From a bacterium (GTDB lineage: Bacteria > CAIJMQ01 > JAADFP01), in NCBI GenBank assembly GCA_027021085.1, contig JALUVB010000079.1, positions 1 to 33,225 on the forward strand: DNA of 33,225 nt. Direction: 5' to 3'. Position numbers and translations under genes: made by a program. The notes beneath the pieces were generated by a model, which saw only the letters and a list, made by a program, of their open reading frames with translations, was not told where the DNA came from and made no database searches. Shown here one piece after another: positions 136 through 33,225 of the stretch (position 1 is its first letter; the number at the start of each line of letters is the position of its first letter).

Positions 136-324
136 GTTTAGTAGCGAGTAGCATTTTAGACTATAGACGGTAGACTATAGACGTTAGACTGGGAGAGGGG
201 ATGCAGAATGCAGAACACAGGTGGGAGAATAGGTGCCCCGACAGGTGCCGGGATAGGGAACTGGCAACTAACAACTCACAACTCACAACTTTTAGACCAT
301 AGACTGCGGTCAGTAGTAAGTAGT
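136..324. repeat. Heptamer-phased repeat array A
   Basis: Reading in fixed 7-base steps from 157 gives five heptamers of form TAGACNN (157-191). The same register continues through GGATGCA/GAATGCA-type units (199-219), TAACAAC/TCACAAC units (269-289), TAGACCA-type units (around 294-307) and AGTAGT units (311-324). The register extends back to about 136. Several different heptamer families therefore follow one another without loss of phase. This resembles the short tandemly repeated repetitive (STRR) heptamers described in filamentous cyanobacteria, but I see no reason to call this genome cyanobacterial. Confidence 0.85.
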
Positions 325-9805: not shown

Positions 9806-9924
9806 CTACTTACTACTTAATTCACTGTTCACTATTTACTGCTTACTGTTTCCCCGGTCTACAGTCTATAGTCTGTGGTCTATAGTCTAAAATCCCCCTC
9901 ACTACTATCTACTCACTACTGATC
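9806..9924. repeat. Heptamer-phased repeat array B
   Basis: From 9806 to 9924, 17 consecutive 7-base units can be read in one register: two CTACTTA units, then NNTNACT-type units (ATTCACT, GTTCACT, ATTTACT, GCTTACT at 9820-9847). Five units of the reverse-complement TAGACNN family follow (9855-9889), then ACTNNCT-type units. The TAGAC block is the inverted relative of those at 157-191 and 15594-15628. It fills the gap between the convergent nuclease and lpxD genes. Confidence 0.85.
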
Positions 9925-14240: not shown

Positions 14241-15596
14241 ATGCAAATAGAAGGGGTCGTTTTGAAAAAAATATGCGAGATATTCAGTAAGAATGCTGCC
14301 CCCATTTATCTGGTCGGGGGCTCGGTAAGAGATATGCTCATGGGGAAGGAGAGTGATGACCTGGATTTTGCTACCCCCCTTTCTCCGGAGCAGATGAAAA
14401 AGATTTTTAGAGAGGAAGGAATACGCGTTTACCCGGTGGGCATAGAATTTGGCACTATAGGGGTTATTGTAGAGGGAAAGGAAGTTCATATAACCACTTT
14501 CCGGCGCAAGGAAAAGTACTCTCCCAAAAGCAGGAAGCCACAGGTGGAATTAGGCGGGAGCATAGAAGAAGACCTCTCCCGCCGGGACTTCACGGTGAAT
14601 GCCATGGCTTTAACGCCCCAGGGAGAGCTTATTGACCCGTTCAACGGGCGGGAAGACCTGAAAAAGAAGATACTGAGACCGCCCATAGACCCGGATGCTT
14701 CTTTCTCGGATGACCCCTTGCGTATGCTCAGGGCTTTCCGGTTCCAGTCTCGCCTGGGATTCGAAATAGAGGAGAACACCCTCTCTTCTATAGGGAGAAA
14801 TTCCTTCCGGATGCTGTTTCTTTCTCCTGAGAGAATCCAGGTGGAAATGGATAAAATACTAACGGGAGAGTTTGTGAGGAAGGCTCTGGAGGGTATAGTG
14901 GAAAGCAGGCTGGCGAGTTTTTTCCTGCACGAACTTGTTCCGCTAAAAGGTTTACATCAGTCAACCGAATTTCACCATAAAGATGTCTGGAAGCATACCC
15001 TAAGGGTGGTAGAGAATGTTGTCCCGGAACCCCGTCTGCGCTGGGCAGCACTTTTGCACGATATAGCTAAACCCTATACCCGGAGCATAGAAAACAAGGA
15101 GATTCATTTTTACCGCCACGAAGAACTGGGAGCGAAGATTGCCTACTATGTATTAACCCGTCTCCGATACCCCAAGGAATTCATAAAAAAGGTCTGCTTC
15201 TTGATAGCACACCACATGCGGCCTGCTTTCTATGCTTCCAACTGGACGGATTCCGCGGTAAGAAGATTCATGCGGGATATGGGAGAGAACCTGGCTGATG
15301 TTATTACTCTGGCCAGGGCAGATATTACTTCTTACCGCCCGGAACGGGTGAAAAAGAGAATAGAATTGCTGGAGGAACTGGAAAAGAGAATAGAAGAATT
15401 TCAATCCTTTAAAGAAGTTACCTATCCGGTGGATGGGAAAGAGATAATGGAAAGGTTTAATATTGCCCCTGGGCCCCTGGTGGGAAAGATTAAAGAATGC
15501 ATCAGGGAAGGGGTAGAAAAAGGAGAACTGCCCGTGGAGTCTCCCGATAAAGAAGTCTACTTCCGGTACGCAGAAAATAAGCTGAGGCTGATTTAG
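14241..15596 (+). CDS. cca: CCA tRNA nucleotidyltransferase with HD domain
   Basis: Adds or repairs the 3' CCA of tRNAs. Class II polymerase-beta fold: LVGGSVRD (24-31), catalytic Asp40/Asp42 in DLD, RRDFTVNAMAL (114-124), DDPLRMLRAFRF (157-168). A C-terminal HD phosphohydrolase-type domain follows, with FHHKDVWKHTL (244-254), HD at 273-274 (LLHDIAKP) and a later HH near 330. 451 aa suits the HD-bearing type. Both tRNA genes nearby lack an encoded CCA, so the enzyme is needed. The stop codon TAG (15594-15596) is the first three bases of the first heptamer of array C, so the current C-terminus was set by the repeat. Confidence 0.95.
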   Translation: MQIEGVVLKKICEIFSKNAAPIYLVGGSVRDMLMGKESDDLDFATPLSPEQMKKIFREEGIRVYPVGIEFGTIGVIVEGKEVHITTFRRKEKYSPKSRKPQVELGGSIEEDLSRRDFTVNAMALTPQGELIDPFNGREDLKKKILRPPIDPDASFSDDPLRMLRAFRFQSRLGFEIEENTLSSIGRNSFRMLFLSPERIQVEMDKILTGEFVRKALEGIVESRLASFFLHELVPLKGLHQSTEFHHKDVWKHTLRVVENVVPEPRLRWAALLHDIAKPYTRSIENKEIHFYRHEELGAKIAYYVLTRLRYPKEFIKKVCFLIAHHMRPAFYASNWTDSAVRRFMRDMGENLADVITLARADITSYRPERVKKRIELLEELEKRIEEFQSFKEVTYPVDGKEIMERFNIAPGPLVGKIKECIREGVEKGELPVESPDKEVYFRYAENKLRLI

Positions 15597-15663
15597 ACTA
15601 TAGACCTTAGACTATAGACGTTAGACTGGGAGATAGTGAGCAGTAAATAGTGAACAGTGAATG
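15594..15663. repeat. Heptamer-phased repeat array C
   Basis: Ten 7-base units in register: five TAGACNN (15594-15628), then GGAGATA and four GTRARYR-like units such as GTGAGCA, GTAAATA and GTGAACA (15636-15663). The first 35 bases match array A (157-191) in 33 of 35 positions by eye, and the following GGGAG is shared too. It begins inside the cca stop codon. A looser 7-bp pattern of AGTTNNN units recurs at about 15817-15851. Confidence 0.85.
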
Positions 15664-29705: not shown

Positions 29706-30194
29706 ATGAGTTATAGGTTTTTAGTTTCTAATCTGAGAAAGGGGCCAGGGAGAAAGCAATCAGTGAGTGTTTTCCCCGCTCACAAATCACAACTCGCATT
29801 TCCCTCCCTCACTACTCACAACTCACAACCCGCTACTAATAATAAGAGGGGCTTCACCCTTATTGAACTCATGGTAGTCATAGCCATAATCGTGCTTCTG
29901 GCCGGAGTGATGATTCCGAACTATATAAAAAACATGGAGAAAGCCAAGTTAGCCAAGGCCAAGGCAGATATAGAAATTCTCATCAAGGCCATAACTCTTT
30001 ACAGGGTGGATAGCGAAGAATTTCCTTCCTCTCTCAGCGACCTTACCTCGGGAACTCACCCTTACCTGGCAAGGGGTATTCCTCCAAGCCCATGGGGTGG
30101 TCCTTACACTTACTCGTTGTCTACTAACTCGTATACCATAGAAGCAAAGGATTCGCAGGGGAAAGTAAAATATTCGGAAACCATAAAATTTTAG
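29706..30194 (+). CDS. GspG-like major prepilin/pseudopilin, repeat-encoded leader
   Basis: 162 aa. Prepilin peptidase site KR-GFTLIELMVVIAII: cleavage after Gly49, Glu5 of the mature protein present. Mature ~113 aa ends with the GspG-type segment PYLARGIPPSPWGGPYTYSL. The unusually long leader (48 aa before the Gly) is largely encoded by heptamer array D (29778-29847). ATG 29706 has a distant GGAG; GTG 29763 with AGGGAGAAAG upstream is an alternative that still translates the array. Pro and Gly-rich C-terminus lacks pilin cysteines. Confidence 0.9.
   Translation: MSYRFLVSNLRKGPGRKQSVSVFPAHKSQLAFPSLTTHNSQPATNNKRGFTLIELMVVIAIIVLLAGVMIPNYIKNMEKAKLAKAKADIEILIKAITLYRVDSEEFPSSLSDLTSGTHPYLARGIPPSPWGGPYTYSLSTNSYTIEAKDSQGKVKYSETIKF
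29778..29847. repeat. Heptamer array D inside a prepilin leader
   Basis: Ten 7-base units in one register: GCTCACA, AATCACA, ACTCGCA, TTTCCCT, then CTCAC-bearing units at 29806-29826, and TACTAAT, AATAAGA at the end. It stops one base into the Arg codon before GFTLIEL. It shares the ACTCACA unit with array A (272-289). Confidence 0.8.
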
Positions 30195-30210
30195 GAAGGA
30201 GGAGGAGGAG

Positions 30211-30813
30211 ATGAATACAAAGGCACAAAGGCGGAGAGGCAGAAAGAATTCTTTTAACTCAAAGCTTGCATTTTCTTTACTCGCTACCAAAAGGAGGGGT
30301 TTTACCCTTCTGGAGCTCATGGTGGTGGTGGCCATAATTGTGATTCTGGCCGGGATAATTTTGCCGAATTATGCCAAGAGAGTGGATAGAGCCAGAATGG
30401 TAAGGGCGGAAGCGGATATTTCTGCGCTGGAGACAGCTATTGCCATGTATGCAAATGATATGGGTACCTATTTTGGCGATGTAAATGGAGATATTTCTCC
30501 CGTAGAAACAGGGTTAGTACAGGGCCCTCCTCAATCCGACCCTGTTTATAGCAAGTGGAATGGTCCCTACGTTAAAGGTATAAGTAAAGATCCCTGGGGA
30601 GAAGATTACCGGTTTTTTGGCAGGAACCCGGCAGTAACCAGCCAGGCTCAGCTGGAAACCAACCTGCAGAGCGAATACGGCAGCATTACCAATCTTCCTC
30701 CCCTGCGTTACTACATATTCTCCAAGGGGAAGAACCGCAAGACAGGCACTGGCTATAACCAGGACGACATCAATAACTGGGATGTAAATAAAACCTGGGA
30801 GAGCCTGTATTAA
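30211..30813 (+). CDS. GspG-like pseudopilin 2, octamer-encoded leader
   Basis: 200 aa. Cleavage site KRR-GFTLLELMVVVAII with Gly30. It has a Glu5-containing N-helix and a C-terminal part with YVKGISKDPWGEDYRFFG, again the GspG DPWG signature. It is followed by an extended, Asn/Gly-rich tail (GKNRKTGTGYNQDDINN). ATG 30211 follows AGGAAGGAGGAGGAGGAG, a very strong ribosome-binding site. The first leader codons (30217-30248) are a tandem 8-bp repeat. Lies 16 nt after pseudopilin 1. Confidence 0.9.
   Translation: MNTKAQRRRGRKNSFNSKLAFSLLATKRRGFTLLELMVVVAIIVILAGIILPNYAKRVDRARMVRAEADISALETAIAMYANDMGTYFGDVNGDISPVETGLVQGPPQSDPVYSKWNGPYVKGISKDPWGEDYRFFGRNPAVTSQAQLETNLQSEYGSITNLPPLRYYIFSKGKNRKTGTGYNQDDINNWDVNKTWESLY
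30217..30248. repeat. Octamer repeat inside the second prepilin leader
   Basis: ACAAAGGC is exactly repeated at 30217-30224 and 30225-30232, then GGAGAGGC (30233-30240) and AGAAAGAA follow in the same 8-bp step. Translated as part of the basic leader. Its reverse complement (GCCTTTGT) resembles the CTTTGTCA octamers at 33146-33201. Confidence 0.7.
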
Positions 30814-30817
30814 GATA

Positions 30818-30838
30818 AGTTATTAGTTGTGAGTTGAC
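30818..30838. repeat. Three AGTTNNN heptamers before the third prepilin
   Basis: AGTTATT, AGTTGTG and AGTTGAC follow one another and end 2 nt before the ATG at 30841, in the place where a ribosome-binding site would be expected. Confidence 0.55.
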
Positions 30839-30840
30839 TT

Positions 30841-31488
30841 ATGAGCGAAACTTTGACAAAAGAAGAGAAATCGTCTCAAGATGCAAAGCGCATCTCTGCC
30901 TTTACCCTCATTGAATTGGTCGTGGTGGTGGCCATTATCTCCCTGCTGGTTTTTGCCTCTATTCCCACCTTCAGGGAATTTATTAACACTTCCCGGCTGA
31001 GGCAGGCCTCCTACGATGTAATCTCAGCCCTGAGAACTGCCCGCGCCTCAGCTGTAAGTAACAGAATAGAGTACATGACGCTTTTTTATACGTCTATGCA
31101 AAATCGAAATAATATCCCCAACTTTGCCTATGCCTATCCCATCTGGTCTGCCGTGCTGGTTTACCAGGTGGAGGAAGGCCCCATAGGCGGATGGAAGAGA
31201 TTGCCCGAGAACATCTTCCTGGACTTTAATTATTTCTATGGGTTGGAGACAGGAGGGGTGGTAGGAGCAGACCCTGATGGTCTTCCCTATCCCAACAATG
31301 ACGAAGTGGTGCAGGGGGACAGTATGCCCATAGTAAGATTTAACAAGAAAGGTGGGGTGGAAGGCAGTGGATTCCCGTGTATACAGCTGAGGGATAATTC
31401 TACCCAGGACACGGCGGCCATAAGAGTATTGAGAAGCACGGGAAGAATATACCTTTATTCTTTCCGGGGTAAATTGGTGCAGGAATGA
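30841..31488 (+). CDS. GspH/FimT-like minor pseudopilin
   Basis: 215 aa. Prepilin N-terminus AKRISAFTLIELVVVVAII with Ala in place of the usual Gly before the cleaved bond. After the helix, FREFINTSRLRQASYDVISA and LRTARASAVSNR are the GspH/FimT signature, followed by a beta-rich domain with a Gly/Asp-rich insertion (EGPIGGWKRLPENIF) and VRVLRSTGRIYLY-like C-terminus. No good ribosome-binding site; heptamers fill that space. ATGA overlap with the next gene. Confidence 0.87.
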   Translation: MSETLTKEEKSSQDAKRISAFTLIELVVVVAIISLLVFASIPTFREFINTSRLRQASYDVISALRTARASAVSNRIEYMTLFYTSMQNRNNIPNFAYAYPIWSAVLVYQVEEGPIGGWKRLPENIFLDFNYFYGLETGGVVGADPDGLPYPNNDEVVQGDSMPIVRFNKKGGVEGSGFPCIQLRDNSTQDTAAIRVLRSTGRIYLYSFRGKLVQE

Positions 31489-32132
31489 GTAAAATAAAGT
31501 GCCGGCTGGAAGGTATAGGTTGTATGCGAAATAATCCCAAACTGGCTAAAGGCTCTGCCTGCTCACCCACAAGCGGTCTTACCCTGATAGAAATACTGGT
31601 TTCACTGGCCATTCTCTCCATTGGTATTCTGGCTATTGCGCATCTTTTCCCGGTAGGGTTGAAATCATCCGAGCGTGCGGTATCTTTTACCCGGGCTTAC
31701 TCCTACCTGCAGGACACGCTGGAAAAGCTGAAGTATGCCGCGGGCGTATATGATGCGGAAGATGTGGCAGAGCTGGAGAATACGTTTAACACCACAAATG
31801 GTCCTAACGGCGTTTTCTACATGGACCCCAACTCTTCTCATTACGATAAGCTCGGCTACTATGAGCTCTGGTACAGGTACCGGATGAATGGCCCCGATTC
31901 TCCTTACCAGGCTAATCCCGGGAAATTCACCACTTATAATGACCCGCAAACCGGGCAGGAATTGGCCTGGTCTTACCTGCTCTTTGAAGAGGAATCCAAT
32001 CTGGATACGGATATAGTGCAGAAAGTGTATATTTCTATCTACTGGAAAGAAAGCGGGGGAGAGAGGGCGGATACCACGCCTCTTTACATTGGTAATATTT
32101 ATTACAGGGAGTTTGGACATGTTCTGCCCTAA
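31485..32132 (+). CDS. GspI/PilV-like minor pseudopilin
   Basis: 215 aa. Leader of about 31 residues, site TS-GLTLIEILVSLAILSIGI, and the GspI/PilV pattern LFPVGLKSSERAVSFTRAYS in which a long N-helix leads to a short domain. The ATG overlaps the preceding stop (ATGA). Its stop overlaps the next start by 14 bp. Position between GspH-like and GspJ-like genes matches the gspG-H-I-J-K order. Confidence 0.87.
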   Translation: MSKIKCRLEGIGCMRNNPKLAKGSACSPTSGLTLIEILVSLAILSIGILAIAHLFPVGLKSSERAVSFTRAYSYLQDTLEKLKYAAGVYDAEDVAELENTFNTTNGPNGVFYMDPNSSHYDKLGYYELWYRYRMNGPDSPYQANPGKFTTYNDPQTGQELAWSYLLFEEESNLDTDIVQKVYISIYWKESGGERADTTPLYIGNIYYREFGHVLP

Positions 32133-32775
32133 GAGGGACCAAGGCTTCACCCTCATTGAAATGCTGGTGGCCGTGGCTATTCTGGCTATCATTGGCACCT
32201 CCTTTTATGCCATTTTCCAGGGCTCATTGGTTTCTTCCAACAAGGGGATGAATCTTGCCTTGGTCTCTTCCAATCTTCGCGGAGCCATGGATTACATTAT
32301 TAAAGACCTTAAAAATGCCGTGGACCCGGAATCAACAGGGAGAACGAATTTTTTCTTCGTAGGAGGAAAGAATAATCAATCTTATATGATGTTTGTAGTC
32401 CCAAATGAGGAAGGGGGTTACCAGGTAGTACTTTACACTCACTCAGAGGATGTCAGTGCTCCCGTGTATGCCGGTACTTCTCGGCAAATTTTGTTCAGGG
32501 CCACCCGGAAGTTGGAGGGGATAGATGTTAAGAGTCAACTTTACGGCACTACTCCGGTTTTCCCTCCTTTTGATGCTACCTGGGTTCAGGGAGATGATGA
32601 ACTGGCTATCCATATAAGTGGGGTTGAATTAAAATTCCAGGGAGAGAATGACTGGGATGATACAGGGCTTCTTCCTCTCTATGTTAATGTGAAACTTACC
32701 TCCACCTATGGCAAGGGAGAACTGGGGCAACAAAAGGAAATGGTTATGGAGGACACGGTGTATCTCAGGAAGTGA
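32119..32775 (+). CDS. GspJ/PilW-like minor pseudopilin
   Basis: 218 aa from ATG 32119, with AGGGAG at 32106-32111; upstream in-frame codons to 32089 lack such a site. Short leader MFCPKRDQ then GFTLIEMLVAVAILAIIGTS. The following ALVSSNLRGAMDYIIKDLKN and the late GVELKFQGENDW...YVNVKLT are GspJ-like. The stop TGA overlaps the next ATG (TGATG). Confidence 0.87.
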   Translation: MFCPKRDQGFTLIEMLVAVAILAIIGTSFYAIFQGSLVSSNKGMNLALVSSNLRGAMDYIIKDLKNAVDPESTGRTNFFFVGGKNNQSYMMFVVPNEEGGYQVVLYTHSEDVSAPVYAGTSRQILFRATRKLEGIDVKSQLYGTTPVFPPFDATWVQGDDELAIHISGVELKFQGENDWDDTGLLPLYVNVKLTSTYGKGELGQQKEMVMEDTVYLRK

Positions 32776-33140
32776 TGAGTGACAAGGTGAAGACTCATAA
32801 GGATTTAGAGGTTTGGAAAAAACCTATTGATTTAGTAGAAGAAGTTTACAAAATTACAGAAAAATTCTCCCAAAAGGAAAAGTACGGATTAACTTTTCAA
32901 ATGAGGAATGCAGCTATTTCCATCCCGAGCAATATTGCAGAAGGGGCAGCAAGAAACTCAACGAAAGAATTTATACAATTTTTATATATAGCATTAGGTT
33001 CTTTATCCGAATTAGAAACACAACTTTTAATTGCTCAAAGAATAAAATATTTGTCAGAGTCATCGGTTTTGGAAAGATTAGAAAAATTAATGATCCTACT
33101 TATAGGACTTATAAATAGCCTTGAGAGGAAGAACAAATGA
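32775..33140 (+). CDS. Four-helix-bundle protein (23S rRNA IVS / Avd-like)
   Basis: 121 aa. The family opening THKDLEVWKKPIDLVEEVYK, then QMRNAAISIPSNIAEGAAR and FLYIALGSLSELETQL, is diagnostic of the S23/IVS four-helix bundle family, first noted in intervening sequences of 23S rRNA and sharing its fold with the Avd protein of diversity-generating retroelements. No reverse transcriptase or rRNA is nearby. Function unknown; Avd binds nucleic acid. By hand count 32821-33120 is about 31 % G+C against about 46 % for 32581-32760, so it is a foreign-looking gene inside the prepilin operon. Start ATG 32775 (AGGA upstream) overlaps the GspJ-like stop; GTG 32772 is less likely. Confidence 0.93.
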   Translation: MSDKVKTHKDLEVWKKPIDLVEEVYKITEKFSQKEKYGLTFQMRNAAISIPSNIAEGAARNSTKEFIQFLYIALGSLSELETQLLIAQRIKYLSESSVLERLEKLMILLIGLINSLERKNK

Positions 33141-33156
33141 AAAGACCTTGTCACTC
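32777..33156. repeat. Perfect 12-bp inverted repeat bounding the four-helix gene
   Basis: GAGTGACAAGGT at 32777-32788 (from the G of the start codon) is exactly inverted as ACCTTGTCACTC at 33145-33156 (from 4 nt after the stop). The 380-bp unit contains only this gene. No transposase is present. Confidence 0.75.
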
Positions 33157-33225
33157 TGTACCCTTATCACTTTATCACTTTCTCCCTTTGTCATCTTCTT
33201 CCGGTATGGCTTTAATCATCGTGGT
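33137..33225 (+). CDS. GspK-like prepilin, 5' part only
   Basis: An open frame from ATG 33137 runs off the window end: a basic start MKRPCHSV, a leader of about 22 residues, then SSSGMALIIV, which is the GspK/PilX-type prepilin N-terminus (Gly before Met-Ala-Leu-Ile). GAGGAAG at 33125-33131 is the ribosome-binding site and the ATG overlaps the four-helix stop (ATGA). A gspK gene is expected here after G-H-I-J. The leader is encoded by the octamer array. Confidence 0.7.
   Translation, partial: MKRPCHSVPLSLYHFLPLSSSSGMALIIV
33146..33201. repeat. Octamer array (CTTTRTCA family) inside a prepilin leader
   Basis: Seven 8-base units in register: CCTTGTCA, CTCTGTAC, CCTTATCA, CTTTATCA, CTTTCTCC, CTTTGTCA, TCTTCTTC. 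The first unit is part of the 12-bp inverted repeat, so the matching unit lies inverted at the start of the four-helix gene. Confidence 0.75.

Follow-up and report, generated by a model that had tools for sequence, protein, structure and literature searches.

The window analysed in this study, a complete contig (C79) of 33,225 bp from a 1.93-Mb draft bacterial genome (G000), carries at positions 29706-33225 a prepilin operon with GspG/H/I/J/K-like genes, and three of its leader peptides are encoded by tandem 7- or 8-bp repeats. We propose, with a probability of about 0.7, that the arrays in these leaders are passengers belonging to dispersed 7/8-bp repeat families, that the permissive leaders have been overwritten repeatedly while the mature pilins were conserved, and that the array of gene 6 is the flank of an inserted gene for a four-helix-bundle, 23S rRNA intervening sequence (IVS) protein, hereafter the IVP gene. 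In this bacterium and its relatives, the prepilin leader seems to be less a control switch than a safe site where selfish DNA can settle. The leader of a type IV pilin is cytoplasmic up to the glycine at position -1 and is removed by prepilin peptidase. Because the leader is cytoplasmic and cleaved, and because its charge and Gly are kept, a stop-free insertion in frame should cost little. In the source organism the arrays are presumably close to neutral, and the leaders would indeed be cleaved.

Tandem repeats in the prepilin leaders of the window

The gene models were mechanical open reading frames (ORFs) with predicted start codons, and the significance of an array was taken from its best score across lags 5-12 compared with dinucleotide shuffles. 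The genes and repeats of the operon were as follows.

29706..30194, + strand: prepilin gene 1 (GspG-like); PF07963 and PF08334 over cut-off; leader 29706-29849; GFTLIEL at 29850 opens the mature part
29778..29847, + strand: heptamer array of the CTCACAA family in leader 1, from Tandem Repeats Finder (TRF), shuffles and genome-wide unit count
30211..30813, + strand: prepilin gene 2 (GspG-like); PF07963 and PF08334; TIGR01710 over cut-off; leader 30211-30297
30217..30246, + strand: octamer array in leader 2; two exact ACAAAGGC copies and degenerate ones; p=0.004
30818..30838, + strand: degenerate heptamers AGTTATT AGTTGTG AGTTGAC, directly 5' of the gene 3 ATG
30841..31488, + strand: prepilin gene 3 (GspH-like); PF07963; leader without array
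31485..32132, + strand: prepilin gene 4 (PilV/GspI-like); PF07963, TIGR02523 below cut-off; leader without array
32119..32775, + strand: prepilin gene 5 (GspJ-like); PF07963, TIGR01711 below cut-off; leader without array
33138..33225, + strand: start of prepilin gene 6 (GspK-like, GMALIIV); the rest lies on contig C296
33164..33192, + strand: octamer array (TTATCACT) in leader 6, from TRF and shuffles; p=0.002

The original prediction placed tandem 7/8-mers between the start codon and the cleavage site of three prepilin genes, and this was confirmed, with p values of 0.002-0.004 against shuffles. The array of leader 1, with a core at 29808-29829 (CTCACTACTCACAACTCACAAC) and degenerate units across 29778-29847, lies wholly between the start and GFTLIEL (p=0.002). 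The heptamers reported before a fourth ATG were present, and their unit fits the genome-wide AGTTRTG family, but they are weak alone (p=0.036 across all lags).

The N-terminal methylation/cleavage domain PF07963 was over the cut-off in genes 1-5. Gene 6 gave no PF07963 match and was assigned by its GMALIIV motif and by synteny, as K-like orthologues follow J in the relatives G003-G005. The leaders of genes 1 and 2 have net charges of +8 and +10, and both genes have Gly(-1) and Glu; the gene 6 leader has a net charge of +2 and Gly(-1) with no Glu, like GspK-type pilins.

A start downstream of the repeats was looked for. In genes 1 and 2, no in-frame start follows the array and a Shine-Dalgarno (SD)-preceded ATG lies 5' of it, so that the arrays would be translated if the genes are expressed. 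In gene 6, the sole in-frame start candidate is a TTG within the array end. Among the array leaders of all genomes compared, 15 of 23 offered no in-frame start beyond the array, and in 19 of 23 an SD-preceded start lay at the array or before it. These counts argue against the idea that the repeats are untranslated binding sites for a regulator or the ribosome 5' of a misplaced start, as proposed for TAACTGA repeats (PMC4679880) and the Geobacter paired sites (PMC2700814). Published heptamers have been interpreted as regulatory, and the heptamers before gene 3, like many arrays of G000, lie between genes; all the same, such a role is very unlikely for the leader arrays.

An assembly artefact was rejected: arrays 1 and 2 are located mid-contig, and the contig end is accounted for by an exact 127-bp overlap, positions 1-127 of C296 being window 33099-33225, with the remainder of gene 6 on C296. 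The assembly breaks directly after the gene 6 leader array, possibly owing to the repeat or to strain variation there.

Dispersal of the arrays and turnover of the leaders

Array scans and unit-family counts for G000 covered a sample of 411 kb, in which 65 lag-7 arrays were found compared with 11 in the shuffled control; these 11 were identical at lags 4 to 15, were read as runs of N, and were gone once N was masked in later scans. Four unit families (TAGACNN, AGTGAAC, AGTTGTG and AGTAGCG) made up 90 of the 93 arrays of the sample. Three successive TAGACNN units matched 328 times genome-wide and 0 times in the reversed control. Moreover, the leader-1 unit CTCACAACTCACAAC, with one mismatch allowed, had 37 matches in G000 against 0 for a control pattern, 12 in the sister species G001 and none in three more distant relatives. 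Heptamer arrays were therefore dispersed above chance at many loci, mostly intergenic, which is the arrangement of the short tandemly repeated repetitive (STRR) class. The cyanobacterial STRR sequences are likewise dispersed bacterial heptamer arrays. Array pairs were inverted in 14 cases and direct in 19 in G000, and inverted in 7 and direct in 4 in G004, where the units were diverse. Within the window, intergenic arrays were present at three further places.

157..290, no strand: heptamer arrays (TAGACNN, CAACTCA), same families as the window arrays
9821..9920, no strand: heptamer arrays (TTCACTG, GTCTATA, CTCACTA)
15593..15662, no strand: heptamer arrays (TAGACNN, AGTGAAC)

The leaders were compared with those of G001, a sister species of the same genus that is 84-89% identical to the window across long aligned stretches, and of G003, G004 and G005, which belong to another family of the same class. 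In G001, genes 1 and 2 were 87-89% identical to those of the window in their mature parts, and their leaders were unalignable and without arrays; in addition, a TAGACNN array separates two upstream genes of G001, and the corresponding place in the window is without one. A second operon shows the reverse: the gspG and gspH leaders of G001 are both heptamer-encoded; in G000 the gspG leader is not, and the gspH leader has a different heptamer. The orthologous operon of G003-G005 again contains leader arrays with other units, and in G004 they occupy 5 of the 6 leaders seen, for example as (TTACCAT)4.5, AGATTCC/AATCTTC and (GACTATC)5. Across 12 G003-G004 gene pairs with arrays, the mean nucleotide identity was 0.89 in the mature part versus 0.42 in the leader. 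Gene 1 showed the predicted combination of differing repeat number and conserved mature part: its leader contains four units in G004 but a single one in G003 and G005, a difference of 3 units or 21 nt, in frame, and the mature parts are 75-89% identical. Non-repetitive leaders in relatives, which the prediction had counted against itself if they were identical, were found in genes 1 and 2 of G001 and in most of G005, and none was identical to those of the window; they reflect turnover, not absence of the effect.

These comparisons also bear on the view that the arrays were born in place by replication slippage and never moved, the leaders merely tolerating their growth. For 7-nt units, a bias towards slippage has been suggested (cited in PMC4692102), and both the diverse units of G004 and the short seed-like repeat versions in gene 2 of G005 would fit it. 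Such an origin is nevertheless unlikely, given that four unit families account for 90 of 93 arrays in G000, that the tripled TAGACNN unit has 328 matches with none in the control, that array presence differs at an orthologous site between G000 and G001, and that IVP genes carry inverted flanking arrays.

The suggestion that repeat number acts as a tuning switch was not supported, as a step of 7 or 8 nt breaks the reading frame and the folds of the window leaders were unremarkable; a single-unit change would turn the pilin off instead of tuning leader length. The related explanation is that the leaders are contingency loci, in which one 7/8-nt unit gained or lost shifts the frame and toggles the pilin or alters leader length or translation. 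As in phase-variable contingency loci, the coding units of 7 and 8 nt are not multiples of three and lie in the N-terminal region, a usual place of phase variation (PMC4692102). Slippage would be possible in perfect arrays, for instance (TTACCAT)4.5 of G004, and Coxiella strains differ in heptamer number before the S23p ORF (PMC4990558). However, unlike such loci, the window arrays are degenerate, which would reduce slippage, and several leaders of one operon have unrelated repeats; the sole clean orthologous change in copy number is the in-frame one of 3 units and 21 nt, the same arrays also occur in enzymes and intergenic DNA, and the leader RNA folds are unremarkable. We consider contingency quite unlikely. 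Translational control by RNA hairpins of paired arms was tried as a candidate and rejected, the fold z-scores against shuffles being +0.18, -1.05, -0.83 and +2.01 for window genes 1, 2, 3 and 6; gene 2 and J of G004 had weak arm hairpins (z -1.27 and -1.64).

The passenger reading was extended by the G003 leaders, which are also filled by three unrelated and quite distinct dispersed repeats. Counted together, the three match 46 times in G003 and 26 times in G004, and five copies outside the queried operon or leader adjoin further pilin motifs. One of them is an element of about 130 bp with inverted ends ACCCCGTTAGAGAT, two copies of which lie inside the GFTL cleavage motif of two pilins; it is flanked by a duplicated GG-TTCACC-like target, and its 3' end provides a new Gly(-1). 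Of the G003 leader inserts, E2 and E3 are dispersed and palindromic.

L034:2918-3052 and L256:749-883: element of about 130 bp in the pilin cleavage motif (G003)

A leader array was counted at a score of 9.5 or more among the retrieved prepilins, and pilins with GFSFIE and GMALVIV motifs were kept out of the "other" genes for G003-G005. Leader arrays were present in 3 of 22 prepilins in G000, 2/17 in G001, 6/23 in G003 and 11/24 in G004, as well as in 1 of 10 in G002, where the array is probably 5' of the true start. In G004, 11 of 24 prepilins compared with 4 of 335 other ORFs (first 80 codons, 400 kb) had an array (Fisher p=1e-11, with operon genes treated as independent). The median leader length was 30 aa with an array versus 10, and array leaders remained positively charged (median +4) and retained the Gly. 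Within this class, the earlier proposal of leaders as a tolerant landing site was strongly supported by dispersed families, leader turnover, enrichment and several unrelated repeat types.

Several observations weigh against this interpretation. No leader array was found among the 17 prepilins of G005 or the 7 of G006, and the leader-2 octamer had no second array in the sampled part of G000. Operon clustering inflates the significance of the enrichment. In G004, array density was 4.4 per kb in leaders versus 0.9 per kb in intergenic DNA, so that tolerance alone may not suffice; a preference for inserting there or the history of the lineage may contribute. Furthermore, six unrelated genomes with IVP genes had leader arrays in 1 of 35 prepilins versus 5 of 90 other ORFs, and on this count a leader hotspot across unrelated phyla was rejected. 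Single cases were seen elsewhere, one in a Verrucomicrobia locus (L092) and one in G035, and the hotspot is clear in this class of bacteria only.

Arrays are also in frame in leucyl-tRNA synthetase and other enzymes, which indicates that tolerance is general. In leucyl-tRNA synthetase, in-frame heptamers (AACTCGC/AACTCAC) near the editing domain occur at the same position in both species of the genus (G000:C4, L103:7516-7547; G001:C32, L321), and the corresponding stretch of G002 is about as long but differs in sequence. On contig C11 of G004, heptamer or octamer arrays lie within ORFs at 58444, 56102, 123757, 339647, 367708, 369952 and 386726; the housekeeping enzymes of G004 with arrays are guanylate kinase, an aconitase-family protein, asparagine synthase, a GltD-like oxidoreductase, carbamoyl-phosphate synthase and a GATase.

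In the proposed course of events, arrays would spread throughout the genome and, in coding DNA, would be kept only when stop-free and in frame. The leader would be an unusually permissive coding site, as everything from the start codon to Gly(-1) is cut off and the mature pilin is unchanged. Different repeats would then overwrite leaders again and again while the mature proteins stay conserved, and slippage probably acts once arrays have arrived. If this is right, a cleaved signal sequence can shelter selfish DNA within coding sequence, which would account for long, odd and unalignable pilin leaders and would call for caution before function or start-site errors are inferred from them.

IVP genes with inverted array flanks

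The IVP gene of the window lies between genes 5 and 6, which are adjacent in G003-G005, and is located among protein genes, not in 23S rRNA.

32775..33140, + strand: IVP gene; PF05635, E=6e-37; TIGR02436 over cut-off
32777..32788, + strand: left arm of an inverted repeat (GAGTGACAAGGT); 12 bp, exact, from sequence
33145..33156, - strand: right arm of the inverted repeat (ACCTTGTCACTC), within the gene 6 leader

The 12-bp inverted repeat of this copy was exact by eye, and its flank inverted-repeat score was low (12.5, p=0.03). A second IVP gene is found 3' of gene 6 (from C296:3330), with inverted TAGACNN heptamer arrays on both flanks. The gene 6 leader array is the probable right flank of the inserted IVP gene. 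Of 24 IVP loci, 16 reached a flank inverted-repeat score of at least 18 and 10 had lag-7 arrays on both sides; neither was seen at any of the 253 control genes. Inverted, mostly heptameric flanking arrays at IVP genes occurred in many phyla. At one locus (G015:C64, L072), two tRNA-like sequences were seen by eye to enclose an IVP gene whose inverted heptamer arms are AGGGATT.

We tentatively suggest that IVP (S23p, Avd-related) genes with inverted heptamer arms could be undescribed, phylum-crossing mobile elements, whose solo or paired arms would seed dispersed arrays and for which prepilin leaders would be a preferred resting place in some lineages. The link of the IVP protein family to the retroelement protein Avd is only a lead. 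In the literature on IVP genes with flanking heptamers, only the Coxiella case was found. There, the 23S rRNA IVS with its S23p/IVP ORF has the same protein family, PF05635, terminal inverted repeats, and tandem heptamers of variable number 5' of the S23p ORF (PMC4990558); unlike the Coxiella IVS, the gene here is located between protein genes of an operon (between tRNA genes at L072), and the flanks are tandem 7/8-mer arrays. If the suggestion is right, IVP genes with inverted heptamer flanks offer a handle on the spread of the long-noticed, unexplained bacterial heptamer repeats.

Known repeat systems and genomic context

The arrays resemble STRR sequences and the dispersed hepta- and octamer arrays reported as TAACTGA (PMC4679880), GGGAATC (PMC4692102) and the paired hepta/octanucleotide sites of Geobacter metallireducens (PMC2700814), in that tandem 7/8-mers occupy many, mostly intergenic sites and differ in sequence and length among close relatives; the likeness to STRR is one of arrangement. 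As in the published heptamer arrays, a stop-free orientation is needed within ORFs; unlike them, the present arrays are clearly over-represented in prepilin leaders, fall into several unit families in each genome and surround IVP genes in inverted orientation. MacGregor (PMC4679880) argued in the same way for TAACTGA repeats, from their orientation and their position at protein edges, and did not mention pilins. The open-access papers searched, which leave out most subscription journals and preprints, contained no earlier account of repeats in prepilin leaders.

The arrays are also like the Rickettsia palindromic elements (RPE) and other in-frame miniature inverted-repeat transposable elements (PMC2229807), which are selfish DNA in protein genes where harm is small. 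The RPE is a fixed palindromic unit of 100-150 bp in frame, whereas the heptamer arrays vary in unit and length, and their preferred site is a cleaved leader, so that the mature protein is freed of the insert. Nearer to the RPE style are E2 and E3 of G003, which are palindromic and dispersed.

A prepilin peptidase (PF01478) is encoded in G000 (C285) and also in G001 and G004. The G003 and G005 genomes gave no PF01478 match, despite about two dozen prepilin-motif matches each, which may reflect an incomplete genome or a divergent peptidase. In the window, the prepilin operon is preceded by genes for secretion/pilus ATPase and T2SSF proteins and by a two-component pair.

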